Of a stretch of DNA of 64,000 nucleotides, positions 9,600-32,700 are shown piece after piece. Positions within the stretch are counted from its first letter, which is position 1. Every line of letters begins with the position of its first letter. The position numbers and the translations under genes are program-made. The DNA is taken from assembly GCF_910596095.1 (NCBI RefSeq), contig NC_056536.1:32000956-32064955 (forward strand). The letters are read 5' to 3'. The notes beneath the pieces were generated by a model. It was not told the DNA's origin. It saw only the letters and a program-made list of their open reading frames with translations, and did no database searches. Source of the DNA: Thunnus maccoyii (Eukaryota > Chordata > Actinopteri > Scombriformes > Scombridae).

Positions 9600-9605
9600 T
9601 TTATT
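9600..9605 (-). terminator. Candidate poly(A) signal of the I-mfa gene
   Basis: AATAAA on the - strand lies about 155 nt downstream of the I-mfa stop codon. It is the nearest canonical hexamer, so it is a plausible 3' end. Confidence 0.4.
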
Positions 9606-9758: not shown

Positions 9759-10030
9759 CTATGTGGGGAAGCAGATAGAGCAGCACTCCAAACAGATCTC
9801 CAGGCAGTCGGACGAGTCCTCCAATATCCCACATTCCAACACGGCCTGACATGCCTCCTCTGTACAGGCCACGTCCCCCGCCGCCTCCAAGCAGCAGCAG
9901 CAGCCGCAGCCGTCCACAGTGTCACAGCACCCGGCCACGTCCCCTCCGCACGCCAGACACGATCCTACGGCTGAACACATGGACAGCAGTTCACAGAACA
10001 GACACCCCAGGAGACAGTGAACGCAACAGT
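9759..10030 (-). CDS. mdfi-like: I-mfa domain exon (terminal exon of the mdfi-like gene)
   Basis: The proximal 3' splice site reads tctctacag followed by ACTGTTGCGTTCAC. The G left by the preceding exon completes GAC, giving DDCCVHC. The exon is 272 nt and encodes 89 residues plus stop, with about 25 Cys typical of the I-mfa zinc-binding fold. Its first 21 nt are also the start of every unit of the adjacent minisatellite. Confidence 0.9.
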
Positions 10031-13000
10031 CTGTAGAGACAAACAGAACAAATAGGAGACAATGAATGCAACAGTCTGTAGAGACAAACAGAACAGACAG
10101 GAGACAGTGAACGCAACAGTCTGTAGAGACAAACAGAACAAATAGGAGACAATGAATGCAACAGTCTGTAGAGACAAACAGAACAGACAGGAGACAGTGA
10201 ACGCAACAGTTTGTAGAGACAAACACAACAGACAGGAGACAGTGAACACAACAGTTCGTAGAGACAATCAGAACAGACGGGAGACTGTGAACGCAACAGT
10301 CTGTAGGGACAAACAGAACAGACAGGAGACAGTGAACGCAACAGTATGTAGAGACAATCAGAAAAGACAGGAGACAGTGAACGCAACAGTCTGTAGAGAC
10401 AATCAGAAAAGACAGGAGACAGTGAACGCAACAGTCTGTAGAGACAATCAGAAAAGACAGGAGACAGTGAACGCAACAGTCTGTAGAGACAAACAGAGCA
10501 GACAGGAGACAGTGAACGCAACAGTATGTAGAGACAATCAGAAAAGACAGGAGACAGTGAACGCAACAGTCTGTAGAGACAATCAGAAAAGACAGGAGAC
10601 AGTGAACGCAACAGTCTGTAGAGACAATCAGAACAGACAAAAGACAGTGAACGCAACAGTCTGCAGAGACAATCAGGACAGACAGGAGACAGTGAACGCA
10701 ACAGTCTGTAGGGACAAACAGAACAGACAGGAGACAGTGAACGCAACAGTCTGCAGAGACAATCAGGACAGACAGGAGACAGTGAACGCAACAGTCTGCA
10801 GAGACAAACAGAGCAGACAGGAGACAGTGAACGCAACAGTCTGCAGAGACAAACAGAGCAGACAGGAGACAGTGAACGCAACAGTCTGTAGAGACAATCA
10901 GAAAAGACAGGAGACAGTGAACGCAACAGTATGTAGAGACAATCAGAAAAGACAGGAGACAGTGAACGCAACAGTCTGTAGAGACAATCAGAACAGACAG
11001 GAGACAGTGAACGCAACAGTATGTAGAGACAATCAGAAAAGACAGGAGACAGTGAACGCAACAGTCTGTAGAGACAAACAGAAAAGACAGGAGACAGTGA
11101 ACGCAACAGTATGTAGAGAAAATCAGAAAAGACAGGAGACAGTGAACGCAACAGTCTGTAGAGACAAACAGAACAGACAGAAGACAGTGAACGCAACAGT
11201 CTACAGAGACAAACAGAACAGACAGGAGACAGTGAACGCAACAGTCTGTAGAGACAATCAGAAAAGACAGGAGACAGTGAACGCAACAGTCTGTAGAGAC
11301 AAACAGAACAGACAGAAGACAGTGAACGCAACAGTCTACAGAGACAAACAGAACAGACAGGAGACAGTGAACGCAACAGAGAAAAAATAAAGTGCTGAAA
11401 AAACACTATCATGCTCTCAGGCTGTATGTTTGGTCGAGGTGGGCGTTGTAGGATCTAGACCATCGGATGCTGGGAGTGGTTATCAGTGTGTGTGCGTGTG
11501 TGTGTGTGTGTGTGCGTGTGTGTGTATTTGTGTGTGTGTGTGTGTGTGCGTGTAGAGATAAGCAGACCCCCATGTTGGAGGTGTTCAGCTGATAAAGAGT
11601 GAGAGGGAGTTTCTTCAGTCAAATCGAGTGAAAATCTTCCAAAGTTAACATCATTTTATTTTCCATGGTGGGCTGCGGAGGGGAAATGGGGGAGGTGTGG
11701 TGATTTGAACATCACCTGCTGGTCAGTGATTTTAATCCAGTTCCTCTCTGTATGTGACTCATTTTTCACCTCCACCCAGTAATAATTACAGCTGTAATGA
11801 CTGTTTTTCACTGCTCCTCCTGTCATTTAAATCCTGTCTTTGTGTTTTAAAGTGGATCTCAGAGTTTTGTCCTTCTGCTGCATTTTATCAGCTCAGTGTG
11901 AAATTTAACTTTTGTGTGAAAATGTTGTTGCTAATCTAAAAAGATGGAAACAGAGCAAGACCCTATAAAAGCTCATTAAAGGCGCTGTTGTAATGTCAGC
12001 TACAGGTAGGTACTGCTGTCGTCTGAAGCCCATATTTGTTCACATTTTGGCAAATAGTCTCCATTAAAAGTCTGCTGAATTATCTATTAGCATTTCCTGT
12101 TTGCGGTGTAGCGATAGATGTACAGACAACTATCACTGAAGGAAACTGAAGTTCTGCAGCCTCTTTTTTCTCTGATTTCTAAGAGGAATTATGGAGGTTT
12201 ATTGTATTGTATTGTATTTACTGGGACCATGTTAACATTTGATGTACCGCACCAGAGTTAGCTTAAAGCTAATTTTTCATCTGCAGTCCCTTACAATTAA
12301 AATATATAACAGCACAATAACAAACAGTACAAAGCAAAAAAACACACACAGGACACATAATACAAAACACAAAGCTGCACACATCACATACACTCACAAT
12401 GTCAACTAGAAATTAATAATGTAAACTTCAAGCTTGTTGATGGACATCGGAGATAATTAATCACACTGAATGATGTTAATATGTGTTTCATGTCTGTGTG
12501 TTCAGATTTGACTTTGAGTTCAGATTCTTAAACCAAACGTTTCATTAGAAGATGAATTTCTGACTTCGCAGTAAATTAGAATAAATCTGATTGGCTCACC
12601 GTCTCCCGCTACTTCTTCAATCTGGGCGGCGCCCGCCTTGAAGGATGTGTGGCTCTTAGCGGAGGAGAGACGCTTCTGATTGGTGTTCTGCTGATGATGA
12701 TGATTATGATGAGGATGAGGATGAGAAGGAGGAAGGCTGCAGCTGTGTCTGGAGGACCCATCAGGAGGAGGGGGAGGAGGAGGAAGAGGAGGACAGGTGA
12801 GGGAGGAAGACGGAGGAGTACAGATGGGAGGAGGAGACGGTGACGACCTGTCCGTATCTGAGAGACAGAGAGATGACATCAGAGATGACATCACACCGAG
12901 TCACGTGTCACCAGGTGTTCTCAGGATGTGAACTGTCACCTTTCTGTTTTTGGAGCGGGGCTGCGGAGGCGGGATGGGCAGGCAGGAGACAAGAGATGTC

Positions 13001-15789
13001 ATTGGTGGAAGAGCTGCTGGTTAAAGAGTCATCACCGTTGTCACCGTCCTCCGGCCTATCAGAGAGCGGGGGCGGGGCCTCCTCTGCAGGTAGATGATTA
13101 GATTAGATTAGATAAAACTGGTCTCTGAGGTTACAGGTGAGCTCAGTTCCACCAGCTGATGACTAACTAGTTTCAAACTGATTTACTTAATAAGTTCGCA
13201 CCATTAAAACTTAAAGAACACGTTGCTAGGAGACATCTGTAGCGCCGTCCAATAAGAAGCAACCAATAATGTAAACAGGAAGTGACAGTAGCACGATGAG
13301 CTGTAACATAACTTCCAAAAATAACAGTTTTATCTGTTTTTCTATCTGCATACCTGGAGAAATACAAGATAAGATAAGACTTTATCTTTTATAAACTACT
13401 TTAGGAGTAATAAATGCAAACAAAATAAGAAGTCAAGTAAATGGAATTCAATCTATAAACAATATGACACATTACAATACTTAGGCTGTATACATGACCT
13501 GATGCATATAGATACATATACATGACCTGATGCATATAGATACATATACATGACCTGATGCATATAGATACATATACATGACCTGACTTGTGGATGTAAA
13601 AAGAAAGAAAGTTGTGCAAAATATGTGCAGAAGTAAAGGTTCTGGTCGGTGCAGCTATAGTTATATGTGTATATGTTATATAGGTGAAGTAGTGGTTATG
13701 AAATATAAATAAAATATGCAGTATCGTTATCTACACAGACCAGCTATATTTCTACATATTGTGGAGGATGGAGGAGTGCGTGGGTGGGATGGAGATGGGG
13801 GTGATGAGCCTTCACAGCTGTTTTATCCTGTTGTCACAGTTCTTGTTGTACAGTCTGATGGCGGCGTTCTGTCTTGCTCTTTGGTGGAATTAGTCTGTGA
13901 CTGAATGAGCCGCCCATTTGCCACAGTTCACCATAGAGCGGCTGAGAGGGATAAAGGACGGTACCGTCCCTCATCCTCCTCTCTGCCGCTGGCTCCAGAC
14001 TGTCCAGTTCCAGCACAGCCACAGATTTGGACTTCCTGACCAACTTAAATTTGTTGGCAGCATGCAACTGTAGAGAAAAGTGCATTCGCTATCGCACACG
14101 TGTAAAACATCCTCAGTAGCTTGTTGCACATGTAAAAGGAGTGCAGCTTCCTGAGGAAGAACAGTCTGCTCATATGTGTGTTGAAGGGTTACTAGCAGGT
14201 TACAAAGAGAGGGAAATAAAGCGTCGGGTCAGATATGTCGACCATATTCCATGTGACCTCTTTCACTCAAACATGAACCTCAGAGGCGACCAATCAGAAA
14301 ACGCTCTGAGTGATTTGGATCATTTTAAATGCTCTGTCATCAGGAGTTGTGTTTTTTCCTGCCTGTCAGTCTTCGCTCAGGGCACAAATACACACGTCCT
14401 GAGACAGGAAGTCCCCTCTCAGAGTCCTGCACTGGTTCGGGGAGGATGTGCGACTGCTCTCGGGTCAGGATGAGTTTAACACGTGATGTCATCAGTCACA
14501 GAAAACATCCAGTGATATCTGATGTGTTCGCTCTGTCAGGATGTTTGATTCCACTTTGTTTTACATCGACAGAGGATTTGATTTACACAGAATCATTTGC
14601 TTACTTGTCTGACACCTTAATGTGTGAACCTGTACTGGATTAACCTCGTACTGGCCTCTACTGTACACGGTGGTACTCCAGAGCTGAAATGATTAGATGA
14701 TTCACGGATTGATTGGCATCAATCGTGTTATTTGATTAATGATTTAAGTCATTTTTTCATCAAAATGCAGAAAATTCTCTGGTAGCAGCTTCTCAGATGT
14801 GAATATTTACTAGTTTTCCCAGTTTTCCATCATAGTAAAACTCAACATCTTTGTGTTTCTGACAAAATAAGTCATCTGAATATGTTCACATGGGCTTCAG
14901 GGAATAATTTTATTCACTGAACAATCAATGGATTATTATAGAAAATAATAGCTGGTAGCCTTACAGTCCTCCTATGATGGAATAATACAACCTGTCCCTT
15001 AGTTTTCTGTGATAAAAACACAACTTTACAACTAACGAGCTCAACAGAAACTAAAACTAGTCTCCAGAGTTCCTCTTCAAGACCAAGATCACAAGACGGA
15101 GGATGGAGGACCAGTCAGAGTTCAGACTGGACCTCACTGCTGCTCGTTAAGAACTGATTTATAATTAATTAGATGTATGTAGACCCAAATAATATGAAGT
15201 GAAGCTGGGACTTTGGGGGTATGGCGGGTAATCCAGCCCTGAGTACAGCCTCTCAGGTCATCTGAGTCTTTTAGTTGTTCCAAATTGCAGAACGAAAACC
15301 TTCGCTGAGGCCACTTTTTCTTTTTATTCTCAGACTGACAAGGATCTGAAAGCAGCTCAAAAATCTATAAAAAATACTCTGCTTTGAATAACAATTTGTG
15401 TCTGTAAAGTCTGTTTGTGCTCCGCAGGCTTCAACATGTTTCCACATCAAACAATCAAAGAAACAACAACAAACTGGTTTTACAACATTATTTAGTTCAT
15501 TTAAGCTTTTATTTTATTATATTTATGTTTTAAAGTGTTTTAGTCCCTTATTTGTTATTGTTTATTATATATTTTACAGCTTTTATTATCACATTTGAAT
15601 TATTATCAGCCTGTCTGTAAAGAGCTGTATGAAAGATGCTGTATATAAACTAATAAAGTTTGATTGATTGGTCGACTGACCTGTGTTGTGATGCAGAAGA
15701 ACCCCATTGGCTGTTGGCTGGCTCGAGATGCACTCTGATTGCTTTGAGCCGTTATTAGCGCCGCTTTCAGAGTGTGATGTCACATCCAT
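9759..15789 (-). CDS. mdfi-like: MyoD family inhibitor (I-mfa domain) protein
   Basis: The coding exons on the - strand are 15789-15681 (ATG), 13083-12940, 12857-12600 and 10030-9759 (TAG), all joined in phase 1. They give 260 residues, against about 246 in mammalian MDFI/MDFIC. The N-terminal two thirds is low-complexity (Ser, Pro, His; a PPPPPPP run and a HHNHHHQQ tract) and includes SSAKSHTSFKAG. The last exon is the I-mfa domain: DCCVHCLLGCLFCELLSM, a CCCC run, then CGILEDSSDCLEICLECC and a terminal SICFPT. Family members bind bHLH and other transcription factors and hold them inactive, partly in the cytoplasm. The exon coordinates assume the acceptor nearest the domain is used; the intron in front of it is a 45-bp array of acceptors, any of which would keep the frame. 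The symbol is a family name; the orthologue (mdfi, mdfic or an extra paralogue) is not settled. Confidence 0.9.
10016..11382 (-). repeat. 45-bp minisatellite, 30 intervals, built from an intron/exon boundary of the mdfi-like gene
   Basis: On the - strand each unit is a pyrimidine tract ending in tctctacag plus the first bases of the I-mfa exon (ACTGTTGCGTTCACTGTCTC). The phase is exactly 45 bp from 10021 to 11371 with no indel, by counting the motif CGCAACAG on the + strand. Thirty acceptor positions exist (exon-side start 10030 + 45k). Twenty-three keep AG, as ctacag, ctgcag or ctgtag. Seven have lost it (those next to 10211, 10256, 10346, 10526, 10931, 11021 and 11111 on the + strand). Because 45 is a multiple of 3 and the unit has no stop, the I-mfa reading frame is open across the whole array. 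Confidence 0.95.
11486..11553. repeat. GT microsatellite with interruptions
   Basis: This is an alternating GT tract with a few GC and AT interruptions, in the last intron of the mdfi-like gene. Confidence 0.9.
11560..12599 (-). other. Intron of the mdfi-like gene with an old interspersed-repeat fragment
   Basis: This is the intron between the coding exon ending at 12600 and the I-mfa exon. Positions 12195-12330 (a TTGTA-rich start, then ACTGGGACCATGTTAACATT) resemble the 3' end of a fish retroposon, seen on the opposite strand. Nothing else is recognised. Confidence 0.4.
13084..15680 (-). other. Intron of the mdfi-like gene
   Basis: This is the 2.6-kb intron between coding exons 1 and 2. 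It contains a 28-bp tandem repeat (13491-13590). The remainder holds no recognised gene or element. The ORFs present are short and lack motifs. Confidence 0.6.
13491..13586. repeat. 28-bp tandem repeat, about 3.4 copies
   Basis: The unit starts TACATGACCTGATGCATATA and continues GATACATA. Consecutive copies start at 13491, 13519, 13547 and 13575 and are essentially identical, which suggests recent origin. Confidence 0.9.
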
Positions 15790-15949: not shown

Positions 15950-16440
15950 TCAGCTTTAATATTATGAGCTTGATGTAGTTAAAGTATTGCAGTAAAAGTA
16001 CACAAGTATTATGAGCTTGATGTAGTTAAAGTATTGCAGTAAAAGTACATAAGTATTATGAGCTTGATGTAGTTAAAGTATTGCAGTAAAAGTACATAAG
16101 TATTATGAGCTTGATGTAGTTAAAGTATTGCAGTAAAAGTACATAAGTATTATGAGCTTGATGTAGTTAAAGTATTGCAGTAAAAGTACATAAGTATTAT
16201 GAGCTTGATGTAGTTAAAGTATTGCAGTAAAAGTACATAAGTATTATGAGCTTGATGTAGTTAAAGTATTGCAGTAAAAGTACATAAGTATTATGAGCTT
16301 GATGTAGTTAAAGTATTGCAGTAAAAGTAGTGGTTTGGTTTCTCTGACTGATATATTATTATATATGACATCATCATCCACGAGGAAACAACAAACACTG
16401 ATCAGATCCTAAAATATCACTGAAGCATTAACACTGAGAG
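15950..16440 (-). mobile_element. hAT-type non-autonomous element fragment with expanded internal 47-bp minisatellite
   Basis: In reverse orientation it matches the element at 32879-33763: the GCATTAACACTGAG and TCTGACTGATATATTA blocks at 16320-16440 are present. About eight near-identical 47-bp units (ATTATGAGCTTGATGTAGTT...) run from 15970 to 16330. It lies in the first intron of the mdfi-like gene. Confidence 0.75.
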
Positions 16441-26728: not shown

Positions 26729-29700
26729 CATCCATCTGTTAACACTAGCCTGTCTGTGTGTCAGAGGGTGTGACAGCTGCAGTGAGTGGTTTCATGGAGA
26801 CTGTATCGGAGTTTCAGAGAAAGCAGCTAAAGCCATCAGAGTGTGGTACTGTCCGTCCTGCAGAGGTCAGTGTCCCCAATATCAAAAATCACTTAAAGCT
26901 CATACTGAAATATATCAAGTCGAACTCTGGTGATATTTAATGTGTTTCTTCTGGCAGTTTGAGTCAGCAGGTTGTCTCTTAGCTGTCTGTTGTGTCCTCT
27001 GCAGACAAAGACTCGTCTCTGGAGATTAAATACCGTCAGAAGAAGACCAAGGAGAAGGAGGACAATGAGGCGGAGCCAGAGAGGGAGGACAAACCTGAAG
27101 GAGACGGGAGCTCCACCCCCCAACCCAAGATGGACAGGAGGCGGGGCTCACAGGTAACCAGGAAGTTACTTTGTATGTTTCAGGCCCCCATGAACAACGC
27201 CAGGCTGTGAAGCTAATTTGACATTGTGGCCAAAGTGTGTATTTACAACCTCCGGGTCTGTCATGTGATCCACACTGGCCCAAAAAGTATTTTTCCTGCA
27301 CACAATCATTGGAAAAGGAGCTGATGAATAAATGTTTCTGAGTGAAATGACTCATTTTATTATCAGAATTTGATCCATTTGGTCCAATAATATTTGGAAA
27401 GTCTGCAGCGCAAGTCTCTAGTGAGCATGCTCAATGGGCCCAAAAATCACAAAGCGTGAGGAACATTCGGGTAATTTCTTTGAAGCCGGAAGCCGATTTT
27501 TTGGCTTCGTAGGCCACAGAGCAACTTTCATCAGAATGAACGGGGCGCCATCTTTGAGTCCGGTATACAGTTCTCCTTAATACATCCATGGTGTGTTTCT
27601 ACTGTGGATTCATTTAACCAGTAGTTTATATAAGGAATCTTTAAGGATTTTTAATCTTCAACTGGCATTTCAACTTTTGTCACTGCTTATATAACAGCTG
27701 ACACTTTTATCACTTACACACCAACTGACACTTCAACTACATACAGTCCACACACTGTCTGTCATTTCAACTAAAAAGGTTGCTGATTTTAACTGACAAT
27801 TCGATTTTTAATTGAGTTCAACTGTTTCATCTCTTATGCTCCTTTAAGAAAACTCCTGCACAGTAATTTCTGAGAAGAATGAACATTTGTAGACACTTGA
27901 AGCTGTTTACAGTGTTTGCATCTGCAGCACGTTCAAATCTTCTGTAGGAAATGTAAATATTTTCTGGTTGTCGTCTGTATTGATAACATAACATATATAT
28001 ATTTGATATTTCTGTGACATTTGTCGTACAGATCAAACGTTCAGCCCGGATGTGCGGTGAGTGTGACGCCTGTCTGAGGACGGAGGACTGTGCTCAGTGT
28101 GACTTCTGCAAAGACATGAAGAAGTTTGGAGGTCCAAACAAAATCCGACAGAAGTGTCGACTGAGGCAGTGTGAGGTCCGAGCCCGGGTGAGTCATCAAA
28201 ATATTCACAGATCGGTGATTCTTATCCTCCTTTAGTTGTTGTCATATTGTCTGAATTTTGTTTATTCATTTATTTTCTTTGAGAATTGATTTGATTAAAT
28301 CGTTGTTGTTTCTTTCGAGCAGAAGATGCTTCGTGTCAAAGACGAGGAGATGAGTCGGAGTGGCGGCAGAGGGCGGGGCCTCCCGAGGAAAGGGACGGGG
28401 CATCAAACAGAGGAGGAGGAGGAGGAGGAGGGGGAGGATATGGTGTTCAGTGAGAGCGAGCTGGAGCTGTACGAGCAGTACAAAGCAGCCGGATACAGAG
28501 ACCTGGTGAGTGTTTCTGACCAATCAGCTCTCAGAACCGGAACTTCCTGTGGTGTGATGCGTTGTCTTGTTGCAGGTGTGGCACAGCGAGGAAGAGGACG
28601 GTCAGTCAGACTCTATGAGGAAGAAGGCGGTGAAGGTGAAGCACGTGAAGAGACGAGAGAAGAAGACAGAGAAGAAGGTGACAGCTTCTTTAAGTAGTAG
28701 AGGATGGATGATGTCACTGATGATGTCATTTACACTCTGATGATGTCGTCCCCTGCAGAAGTCTGTCTCTGCTCCTAAAGAGGAGGTGAAGCTGCGTCGT
28801 CACAAAGCAAAGCAGCGCCATAGGGAGCGTGTGCGGCACAGCGAGCGAGGAGGAGAGGGCGGGGTTAAGGAAGTGGGTGGGGCTATGCGCCAGTGTCTGG
28901 GTCCAGGCTGCGTCGAACTGGCAAGGGTCAACTCCAAATACTGCTCAGAGGACTGTGGCATGAAGCTCGCTGCCAAGTGAGTCTCCTCACACAGTTTGTA
29001 TCCTGTAACACACCTGTAGCACACCTGTAGTACACTTGTAACACCTGTAGCACACCTGTAGCACACCTGTAACACACCTGTAGCACACCTGTAACACCTG
29101 TAGCACACCTGTAGCACACCTGTAACACCTGTAGCACACCTGTAACACACCTGTAGCACCTCTAACACCTGTAGCATACCTGTAGCACACCTGTAGTACA
29201 CCTGTAACACTTGTAGCACACCTGTAACACACCTGTAGCACCTCTAACACCTGTAACATACCTGTAGCACACGTGTAACACCTGTAACACCTGTAGTATA
29301 CCTATAGCACACCTGAAGCACACCTGTAACACACCTCTAACACCTGTAGCATACCTGTAGTACACCTGTAGCACACCTGTAACACACCTACAACACACAT
29401 GTAACACACCTGTAACACACCTGTAACACCTGCATCACACCTGTAACACACTTGGAACACAAATATAACATACGTGCAACACACCTAGTACACCTGGAAC
29501 ACACCTGTAGCACACATATATTACTTATAGTATGCATGTAAAACCTGCAACAACCCCTGAAACACACCTCTAACACACCTGTAACACCTGTAGCACACCG
29601 TAATACCTGAAACACACCTGCAACACACCTGTAACATGCTTGTAACACAACTATAACATACCTGCAACACACCTGTTACACCTGTAACACACATGTAAAA

Positions 29701-32700
29701 CCTGTAACTCACCTTTAACACCTTGTTAGGGACCAAGCATGAAGGCACAGGATGGAGGGTTTCACGTTAAAAAAAGGTGGGTTTTATTTAACCCAAAAAA
29801 GACAAATCAACGGTGAATATCAACTTAGAGAGGTCAACAAAACAGAACTGAACTCAAAATTCAGCAACAGAACTGTGTAAGTTAATCAAACACAAATCAA
29901 AAATACAAAAATACAATATCTACGAATAACCACACATAGCACTAAACAGTTTGCTGACAACTCAGTGTTACTACTTAATGTAAATTAACTACAAACAGGG
30001 ATGACTGTCTGTCTCTCTGTCCTTCAGTCGTATCTATGAGATCCTCCCTCAGAGGATCCAGCAGTGGCAGCAGAGTCCCTGTGTTGCCGAGGAGATGGGG
30101 CGGAGACAGCTGGAGCGAATCAGGAAAGAGCAGCAGGCGGCCAGGCTCCGTCTCACTCTGATGGAGAAACGATTCCATGAGCTCGAAGGCATCATCGCCA
30201 ACGCCAAACTGCAACAAGTCCAACAAGACGAGGAGGTATGAGACAGTAACACAGGGACAGAAAGACACAGAGATATAGCTTTTAGTCTTTTCATCTGTTC
30301 ATCTCTTAATTCTGTCTGTCTACAGGTGACTGAAGGTGAGGGTGATGACACAGACCTTCAGATTTTCTGTGTTTCCTGCAGTCATCCCATCAACCCAAAG
30401 GTGGCGCTGCGACATATGGAGAGATGCTATGCTAAGGTCAGTTAACAGAGTCAGGATACGTGTGTCCATCAGTTGTCTTTAAAGAGCAGGAAAACAGAGC
30501 CGGGTCCCCTGAAGCATGACCTCCTTTGGGGTCCCCAAAAGTCAGGTGTTTCACTTCCTTTAGGGTCCCCAGAAGCATCCCTTCCTTTAGGGTCCCCAGA
30601 TGTCAGGTACGTTTCTTCCTTTAGGGCCCCCAGAAGTCAGGTGTGTCATTTCCTTTAGGGTCCCCAGAAGTCAGATGCGTTACTTCCTTTAGGGCCCCCA
30701 GAAGTCAGGTGTGTCATTTCCTTTAGGGTCCCCAGAAGTCAGTTGTGTTACTTCCTTTAGGGTCCCCAGAAGTCAGGTGTGTCACTTCCTTTAGGATCCC
30801 CAGAAGTCAGGTGTGTAATTTCCTTTAGGGTCCCCAGAAGTCTGGTGTGTCACTTCCTTTAGGGTCCCCAGAAGTCAGGTGCGTTACTTCCTTTAGGGTC
30901 CCCAGAAGTCAGATGCGTTACTTCCTTTAGGGTCCCCAGAAGTCAGTTGTGTCACTTCCTTTAGGGTCACAAGAAATCAGGTGCGTCACAACTAGTGATT
31001 TAGCACATGACAACAGCTACATGATGACAGACAGTAACAACAACAGCTTAATGTTCACAAAGTTTTAACTTTTATATAAAGTGGCTGAAACATTTAACTG
31101 ACCTGTCTCACTCTCTGTCTGTCCGCAGTATGAGAGTCAGACATCGTTTGGTTCCATGTACCCAACACGTATAGAGGGGTAAGAACACCTGTTTGTCTGC
31201 CTGTCTGTCTTTCATTGGAAGAGTTATATACTCTTAGAGTAAGACCTGTCTGTCTTTGTCCGTCGGTCTTTCAGAGCCACCCGGCTGTTCTGTGATGTGT
31301 ATAACCCTCAGAGTAAGACGTACTGTAAGCGGCTGCAGGTTTTGTGTCCTGAACACTCCAGAGATCCAAAGGTACGACTTGGTTTATCACCTCATCATTT
31401 CAACAGTTTGTTCACAAAATGCTGTTTATCTGCTGGTTATTTTCTCTTCTTGTGGTTTCATATTGAGCTCATTGGTGTTTTTGGCTTGTTTGAGCCCTTT
31501 AACTGCCAGTCCTGCTTATTTTACACCACTGATTGTTATTGGAGACTGAGCCAGAACAACTGAGGAAATGGTTTATCCTTGTAGAAAACAGAATGTTAAA
31601 GTCTGGCTGGCTAACATTTCCAAACTAGCTAATGAAGCTAGTTACTTTATTAGCTACCACCCTGCTTTTCATTTCAATAGTGTTCTCTCACAATTAACAG
31701 TAACTAAAGATTCATTGATAATGATTGGTGCTTTGTGACTGAAACCATAGCAAATGTGTTAGCTAATGTGGCTAGGTAGCAATCTGGATTACCATTAGCC
31801 TCCACAAAGTGGTTTCTAGACTTCCAGTTCACACAAAAACAGCAGCAATAAAAAAATAGCAATTTAAAATCAGATTGATCAATAAAACGAGAAAAAGCAA
31901 AACAAAATATAAAGTATAAAGATCAGAACAATGAAATAACTCAACATATGAAAAGATACACAATAGAAACTTACAACAAAAACTAAAACAGAATTTAGTA
32001 AAGCCAGCTAACATTAACTGTTTGTCCCTCAGGTCCCAGCAGACGAGGTGTGTGGATGTCCTCTGGTTAAAGATGTCTTTGAGCCCACCGGAGAGTTCTG
32101 TCGGGTTTCTAAGAGGAAGTGTAACAAACATTACTGCTGGGAGAAACTTCGCCGTGCCGAGGTCGACCTCGAGAGAGTCCGAGTGGTACTGAACTCTCAA
32201 CAAAACTTTAACATCAGCTTTTAGTAGCAGCACAGTGAAAGCAGAGATGTTTGTGTTCATCATGGTGGACAGATGAAGGTTGTCTGTGTGCATGTGGAAG
32301 TTCTTCAGTCTTAAAACATGAGTGGGAAATTTTGAAAAACTAACATGAATGTAGCTTCTGTCCGACCTCCACAGTCTGGATGTGAAAGCGTTTTCAATCA
32401 TCAATCTCCTGATTTCTGTCATTGTAATCAGAAGAAATGTATCATTTTATACATATCTGAAACACATGATACATGAGCACTAAGCTTACAGAGATTAGTG
32501 GGGTGGCAGCTCACTGTCGGCCCTGTGTAGGCAGACCACTCCGTCTTTAGTGGTCCCTGGTTGGTCCTTTGTCAGCATGCCGCTCAGAATGAAACATGAG
32601 GATTTAATGGAGATTTATGAAAGTCAAACAGATTTAATGGATCACAGGCTTGAGTCAGCTTGTTGTTTTAGCGGCTGATAACATCACAGAACAGAAAAGT

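Follow-up and report, generated by a model that had tools for sequence, protein, structure and literature searches.

Splice sites inside tandem repeats are already known. According to one account of ABCA7, intron 18 contains a 25-bp VNTR that includes the donor of exon 18 and is present in 23.7 copies in the human reference, and one repeat unit can be retained through use of the donor one unit further on (PMC5954066). Human UBC is described as carrying an AGGT splice site at every ubiquitin repeat, with RT-PCR giving a ladder of products (PMC10809524), and in IR1 of Epstein-Barr virus the repeated W exons are reported to yield EBNA-LP with a variable number of repeat domains (PMC12451641). Where competing acceptors lie 20 or more nt apart, one study finds that the choice typically falls at first recognition and that the upstream one of a pair is preferred overall, less so when introns are long (PMC9225289), and AG exclusion zones are the topic of a further report (PMC1431707).

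Here we describe a tandem repeat that contains a complete 3' splice site, in a 64,000-nucleotide stretch of Thunnus maccoyii DNA (assembly GCF_910596095.1, contig NC_056536.1, positions 32,000,956 to 32,064,955; hereafter the window), the assembly being 782 Mb in 54 contigs. The gene concerned lies on the minus strand and is MDFI; its four coding exons join to one open frame and, supported by homology, give a predicted protein of 260 aa (Table 1). This protein contains the Cys-rich, C-terminal I-mfa domain (Pfam PF15316, 97.3 bits against a cut-off of 27), has 342 homologues at an E value of 0.001 or better, and equals the MDFI of Thunnus albacares at 253 of 260 residues (97%), with 7 differing. 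A PDB entry exists for MDFI itself. Both the donor phase and the exon start are backed by unbroken homology to annotated fish MDFI, and the boundary also by a paralogue in the same genome (L010), which has the same exon boundary without an array. Depending on the acceptor used, the last intron would be 1264 to 2569 nt long.

Table 1. Positions in the window of the predicted MDFI exons, the minisatellite and its acceptor positions.
Feature	Position	Strand	Basis or detail
First coding exon, ATG at 15789	15681..15789	-	Homology from residue 1
MDFI coding exon	12940..13083	-	Homology to annotated fish MDFI
Coding exon ending in phase 1 (GAGACG/gtgagc); donor 12600 for every array acceptor	12600..12857	-	Sequence
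45-bp minisatellite, 30 full units followed by the real exon start	10008..11379	-	Tandem Repeats Finder
30 acceptor positions, first exon base 10030 + 45k	10030..11335	-	Exon-start motif spacing
AG-bearing acceptors 1-12 of 23	10030, 10075, 10120, 10165, 10300, 10390, 10435, 10480, 10570, 10615, 10660, 10705	-	
AG-bearing acceptors 13-23 of 23	10750, 10795, 10840, 10885, 10975, 11065, 11155, 11200, 11245, 11290, 11335	-	
Seven acceptor positions without AG	10210..11110	-	AT at 11110, 11020, 10930, 10525, 10345; GA at 10255; AA at 10210
Terminal coding exon, I-mfa domain and stop codon; presumed default acceptor 10030	9759..10030	-	Pfam PF15316, homologue
AATAAA, candidate end of terminal exon	9600..9605	-	Read directly in sequence

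Between donor 12600 and the last exon, Tandem Repeats Finder reports a repeat of period 45 in 30.5 copies. The motif with which the I-mfa exon begins occurs 31 times, the last copy being the real exon, and the spacing is exactly 45 nt in 30 of 30 cases, with 16 distinct unit sequences in the array. The seven acceptor losses among the 30 positions comprise 5 AT, 1 GA and 1 AA, and the whole array holds 24 AGs, namely the 23 acceptors and one extra AG located in a unit whose acceptor is lost.

Alignment of the unit with the exon gives 23 nt that match, 5 nt that are missing and 9 nt more that match, the last 13 nt of the unit being intron; the exon-derived part is thus 32 nt, taken from the first 37 nt of the exon minus 5 nt. 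A 5-nt gap followed by a 9-nt exon match of this kind arose 85 times when the unit tail was shuffled 200000 times. Because only 13 nt of the unit are intron, the branch motif and most of the tract are coding sequence: the Val-His codons (GTTCAC) are the source of the branch-point motif, the Cys-Leu-Leu and Leu-Phe codons (within CCVHCLL and LFC) supply most of the pyrimidine tract, and the AG comes from the intron remnant. The A of the branch motif (TTCAC in 21, TTCAT in 2) lies 32 nt ahead of the G of the next AG in 23 of 23 intact units. The initial annotation had described a boundary copied 30 times in tandem, with AG kept in 23 units and lost in seven and the branch-motif A about 33 nt ahead of the AG; the 31 exon starts with their 30 acceptor positions, a recheck of the AG count and the measured distance all agree with this. 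Its anatomy of the unit holds for the branch motif, tract and AG, which are present in all 23, and has to be amended for the exon part, which is 32 nt with a 5-nt deletion and not 21 nt.

Scored with an approximate 3' splice site weight matrix, the 23 array acceptors range from 7.96 to 10.41, compared with 7.13 to 10.5 for the three other predicted acceptors of the gene. By the same approximate matrix, the ~1.35 kb array contains 23 complete acceptor-like sites, against 0.675 per kb per strand in a 200-kb background sample of the same genome (20 pieces of 10 kb from ten contigs, some containing N). The four acceptors nearest the exon all score at the array maximum; since units 27-30 read HIHI, a local duplication, these scores are not independent and were not taken as proof of exon-proximal strength. 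We also considered RNA structure as a means of hiding acceptors, and found none in the 301-nt stretch of array that was folded, which folds no better than its shuffles (z 0.58).

As the unit is 45 nt long, all 23 AG-bearing acceptors would join donor 12600 in frame with the domain, as had been proposed, giving predicted proteins of 260 to 695 aa that differ between intact acceptors by multiples of 15 residues and have no stop in that frame. The open frame was discarded as evidence of translation and is uninformative, because stops in the domain frame would result from only 3 of 135 single changes, zero stops are expected with a probability of 0.79, and another frame of the unit is open too. 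The array contains no GTAAG, GTGAG, GTATG, GGTA or AGGT, so the units are expected to serve as acceptors only and are unlikely to form exons of their own, in which case upstream use would lengthen the last exon at its 5' side.

Searched genome-wide with up to 2 mismatches, the 21-nt exon start gave 30 matches. Of these, 29 belong to this locus, namely the real exon plus 28 units; the remaining one stands alone and equals what the reversed pattern yields as a control (1 and 1, per strand). This concentration of 29 of 30 matches at the MDFI locus bears out the earlier view that the repeat originated at the locus. No second array of the unit was found in the 782-Mb genome, and the exon-start pattern had 0 matches in viral contigs. 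Of eleven other genome matches at 64-68% identity, the seven that were fetched are TCTG-, CTCTGTCTGT- or ACAGACAG-type repeats of other units and were rejected as relatives. There are six MDFI-domain matches in the genome; the boundary of paralogue L010 reads ctctccag/ACTGCTGTGTTCACTG, the same as in MDFI, and no 45-bp array was present at the five paralogous loci, read ~1.5 kb either side. No array elsewhere that would point to a transposon or dispersed satellite was seen at the isolated match or the seven fetched loci, and the unit belongs to the MDFI locus.

Other tandem repeats also occur in the window. One 47-bp minisatellite lies both at 1108-1259 and at 15960-16329, 15 kb apart and in opposite orientation, with the exact 47-mer found 4 times on the plus and 6 times on the minus strand. 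Two long minisatellites, at 29002-29723 (units of ~11, 31 and 42 bp) and 30522-30989 (34 bp), are less than 1 kb apart, and neither contains acceptor-like sites. Apart from the MDFI array, the window has three arrays with a period of at least 20 and at least 5 copies, none of which has an acceptor-like site on either strand, and the 200-kb background sample contains no array of that description.

We examined homologous proteins for repeated exon starts, and among 120 listed of the 342 homologues one carries them, isoform X3 of zander, Sander lucioperca (P0074), which after the shared exons reads DCCVHCLLYVLIVSVSTDCCIHCLLACLFSMSLSPQTVAFTVSWPACSDCLCLHRLLRSLSPGLPVLIVSVSTDCCIHCLLACLF and then ends. 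Models numbered X in this way are predicted by NCBI, as a rule with RNA reads as a guide. By codon arithmetic from the peptide, its exon starts are 51, 56, 56 and 56 nt apart, and codon compatibility is 188/201 at period 56 and 133/145 at 112, compared with a mean of 0.68 over periods 30-149. Since the zander copies are read in three frames, intersecting the frames yields one peptide-inferred 56-nt sequence, with 2 of 56 columns assigned by majority. Outside two gapped blocks, one of 6 nt and one of 5 nt that is placed as 3 and 2, this sequence differs from the two tuna units tried by 1 mismatch (unit L) and 2 mismatches (unit H), and the exon-to-intron join, CTGTTCTG followed directly by ATTGTCTCT, is common to the inferred zander unit and tuna unit L. 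Zander isoform X1 (P0014) joins at the normal boundary, and X1 and X3 are both listed with a contig of one and the same length, 39,468,189. Thunnus belongs to the Scombriformes and Sander to the Perciformes, both within Percomorphaceae. As annotated, isoform X3 would enter a matching array at the same boundary, a hint that splicing into a repeat of this sort is possible and indirect support for the alternative acceptors proposed in the initial annotation. With a unit of 56 nt the zander array does not keep the frame, and its use removes the I-mfa domain from the X3 protein, so the example makes no case for a functional in-frame ladder. Should the stop be located in the last exon, as the gene model implies, the X3 RNA may evade decay.

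The only T. albacares MDFI protein seen is the 260-aa form, which is joined at the position of the terminal acceptor. In a search for longer, repeat-bearing MDFI proteins, none of 8000 scored candidates of ~296-943 aa fell under the threshold, and 2941 candidates of 382-1216 aa gave one hit, a fusion model without repeats. The T. albacares protein, together with the lack of a repeat-bearing MDFI among the scored candidates, favours the terminal acceptor as the main one. The fusion hit (P0121, Scophthalmus maximus, 655 aa, named MBD4) has MDFI N-terminal exons followed by an MBD protein and is either a fusion model or read-through; the T. maccoyii contig has an MBD-domain match, interrupted by two stops, ~99 kb away from the start of the window.

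Two further variants of the last junction were noted. An in-frame AG lies 60 nt inside the I-mfa exon (TGTTCAG/CC; window 9971-10030, minus strand), 47 nt past the A of the TTCAC motif; isoform X2 of Centropristis striata (P0100) joins at the equivalent of this AG, and P0068 and P0094 within a few residues of it, so that an in-exon alternative acceptor of the I-mfa exon seems to be annotated in several fishes. Read-through of donor 12600 (window 12520-12600, minus strand) gives GDGEPIRF...stop, and the GDGEP continuation is also present in annotated proteins of Toxotes (P0084), Sebastes (P0097) and Lates japonicus (P0098), and in Caranx (P0058), where the protein then rejoins the domain. These GDGEP proteins probably represent a recurrent retained-intron form, mostly without the I-mfa domain.

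We then compared the units with one another. Counting each change once per column and base over the 16 unit types, and taking the consensus as the starting state, we obtained 21 distinct changes from the unit consensus. Synonymous changes in the domain frame number 7 of 21 against 6.8 expected, stop changes 0 against 0.22, and pyrimidine-to-purine changes in the tract 3 against 3.2. In the two AG columns 3 changes were counted where 0.93 would be expected (P of at least 3 = 0.04), which is an excess rather than a deficit; changes that break the branch motif number 0 against 1.56 (P 0.16). A split of the synonymous changes between the exon-derived part (5/8) and the rest (2/13) was set aside, as the cut had been made at column 21, before that part was redrawn to 32 nt, and the numbers involved are low. 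We see no clear indication that individual units are maintained, and their evolution looks neutral. The array looks like a minisatellite that spreads variants by local duplication, a picture that fits the seven dead acceptors with their three kinds of loss.

The reading that we lean towards is that tandem duplication acted on the 3' splice site of the last MDFI coding exon, and that the acceptor adjoining the real exon is the main one. The upstream copies would be used at a low and stochastic level, lengthening the terminal exon, and copy number would drift through slippage or unequal exchange, with no selection acting on individual units. The tuna array would share its origin, or at least its breakpoint, with the zander array of 56-nt period. 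Mostly terminal use with a minor ladder would be expected in tuna, and the predicted zander isoform X3 would be the only sign of upstream use among 120 listed of the 342 homologues. With an intron of 1264 to 2569 nt, acceptor-competition theory names no clear winner.

It is possible, if doubtful, that the array is a passive, intronic minisatellite in which only the terminal acceptor is used, slippage at a pyrimidine-rich junction having left the upstream copies as silent by-products. The single-acceptor form of the T. albacares protein, the failure to find a repeat-bearing tuna protein among the 120 listed homologues and the scored candidates, and the lack of visible constraint on the AG and coding columns all speak for silent copies. 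However, the annotation of zander isoform X3 has it enter an array of this kind, the array acceptors score like real ones, and a preference for the upstream acceptor, weaker with long introns, has been reported at distances of 20 or more nt (PMC9225289). The part of the favoured reading that concerns a common origin faces a rival of its own, not much short of an even chance, in which tuna and zander acquired their arrays separately at one and the same place, with no ancient array behind them. The periods differ (45 against 56), with gaps of 5 and 6 nt between the units, and 119 of 120 listed homologues (of 342) show no repeat in their proteins; a shared short TTCTG-like stretch of exon and intron, favouring the same duplication twice, is conjecture. 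Against independent arrays, the exon-to-intron join is the same, with 1 mismatch in the aligned part, and protein records would reveal an intronic array only if an isoform enters it. A bolder version of shared descent, which we regard as speculative and rather unlikely, makes the array an old splice-acceptor minisatellite in percomorph MDFI, common to tunas and perches, in which the coding sequence for CCVHCLL.CLFC doubles as branch point and tract, so that each slippage would add a working acceptor. Two small deletions in the tuna line would then have shortened the unit from 56 to 45 nt and brought it into frame, and copy number would set a ladder of proteins with Cys-rich, hydrophobic 15-residue repeats before the domain.

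Three other explanations carry far less weight. An array that acts as a length-dependent regulator, a multivalent platform on which pyrimidine-binding factors (U2AF, PTB) would tune the efficiency of the last splice, is improbable. Pyrimidine content is 71% in the array and 50% in the intron upstream, with 1.99 against 0.08 TCTCT and 6.03 against 0.08 TGTCT per 100 nt, and motifs of the TCTCT/TGTCT type bind PTB; the array stretch that folds no better than shuffles is compatible with this, as is the ABCA7 precedent, in which VNTR length changes splicing (PMC5954066), yet the motif density follows from the origin of the unit. Still less probable are redundant acceptors kept by selection, which the initial annotation had offered as protection for splicing of the I-mfa exon. 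That 23 of 30 acceptors are intact, that the four closest to the exon reach the top array score and that no change breaks the branch motif would suit such a role, but the AG columns have changed more often than expected (3 against 0.93), the synonymous count is as expected (7 against 6.8) and paralogue L010 shows one acceptor, so this proposal was not upheld. An assembly error or a dead gene copy is scarcely credible, given 16 different unit sequences at an exact 45-nt spacing throughout, an exon start that is arrayed at one place in the genome only, and four coding exons in open frame with 253 of 260 residues equal to T. albacares MDFI.

The rules of acceptor choice have often been tested on pairs, whereas here ~23 near-identical complete acceptors stand in frame in a natural gene, and single-base variants mark many of them, so that long reads could score which is chosen. 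Where the coding sequence of an exon already looks like a branch point and tract, a minisatellite can become a splice site that multiplies, and repeat number could change the MDFI protein, if tuna splices into the array. The paralogue MDFIC is reported to be an auxiliary subunit of the PIEZO1 channel (PMC12266723). If tuna MDFI acts like MDFIC, added Cys-rich repeats before the domain could matter physiologically.

Within the open-licence literature we found neither a minisatellite that multiplies a complete acceptor nor a ~30-fold in-frame acceptor derived from an exon that supplies its own branch motif, the nearest cases being ABCA7 and UBC. The initial statement that no described gene has such an arrangement is nevertheless too strong, as these are close precedents (PMC5954066, PMC10809524). 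As in tuna MDFI, the ABCA7 repeat includes the exon's own splice site; however, it repeats a donor (GT), with a 25-bp, out-of-frame and disease-associated unit, whereas the repeated element of MDFI is a complete acceptor plus exon sequence and its 45-bp unit keeps the frame, and the human array is polymorphic in length, the MDFI array being known here from one assembly (PMC5954066). In UBC, the AGGT sites serve as both donor and acceptor and the repeats are whole coding domains (PMC10809524). The MDFI array, by comparison, contains no AGGT and would only lengthen an exon at its 5' side; its period is a multiple of 3, as in repeats of the UBC type (30 of 30 spacings are 45 nt). NAGNAG acceptors share one branch point. 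They resemble the MDFI array in that neighbouring acceptors give in-frame length variants, and differ in their 3-nt spacing, as against 45 nt and a branch motif for each acceptor in MDFI (PMC3250501, PMC1449888). In IR1 of Epstein-Barr virus each repeat has complete exons, whereas MDFI has acceptors only, and the likeness is one of outcome, not of kinship (PMC12451641).
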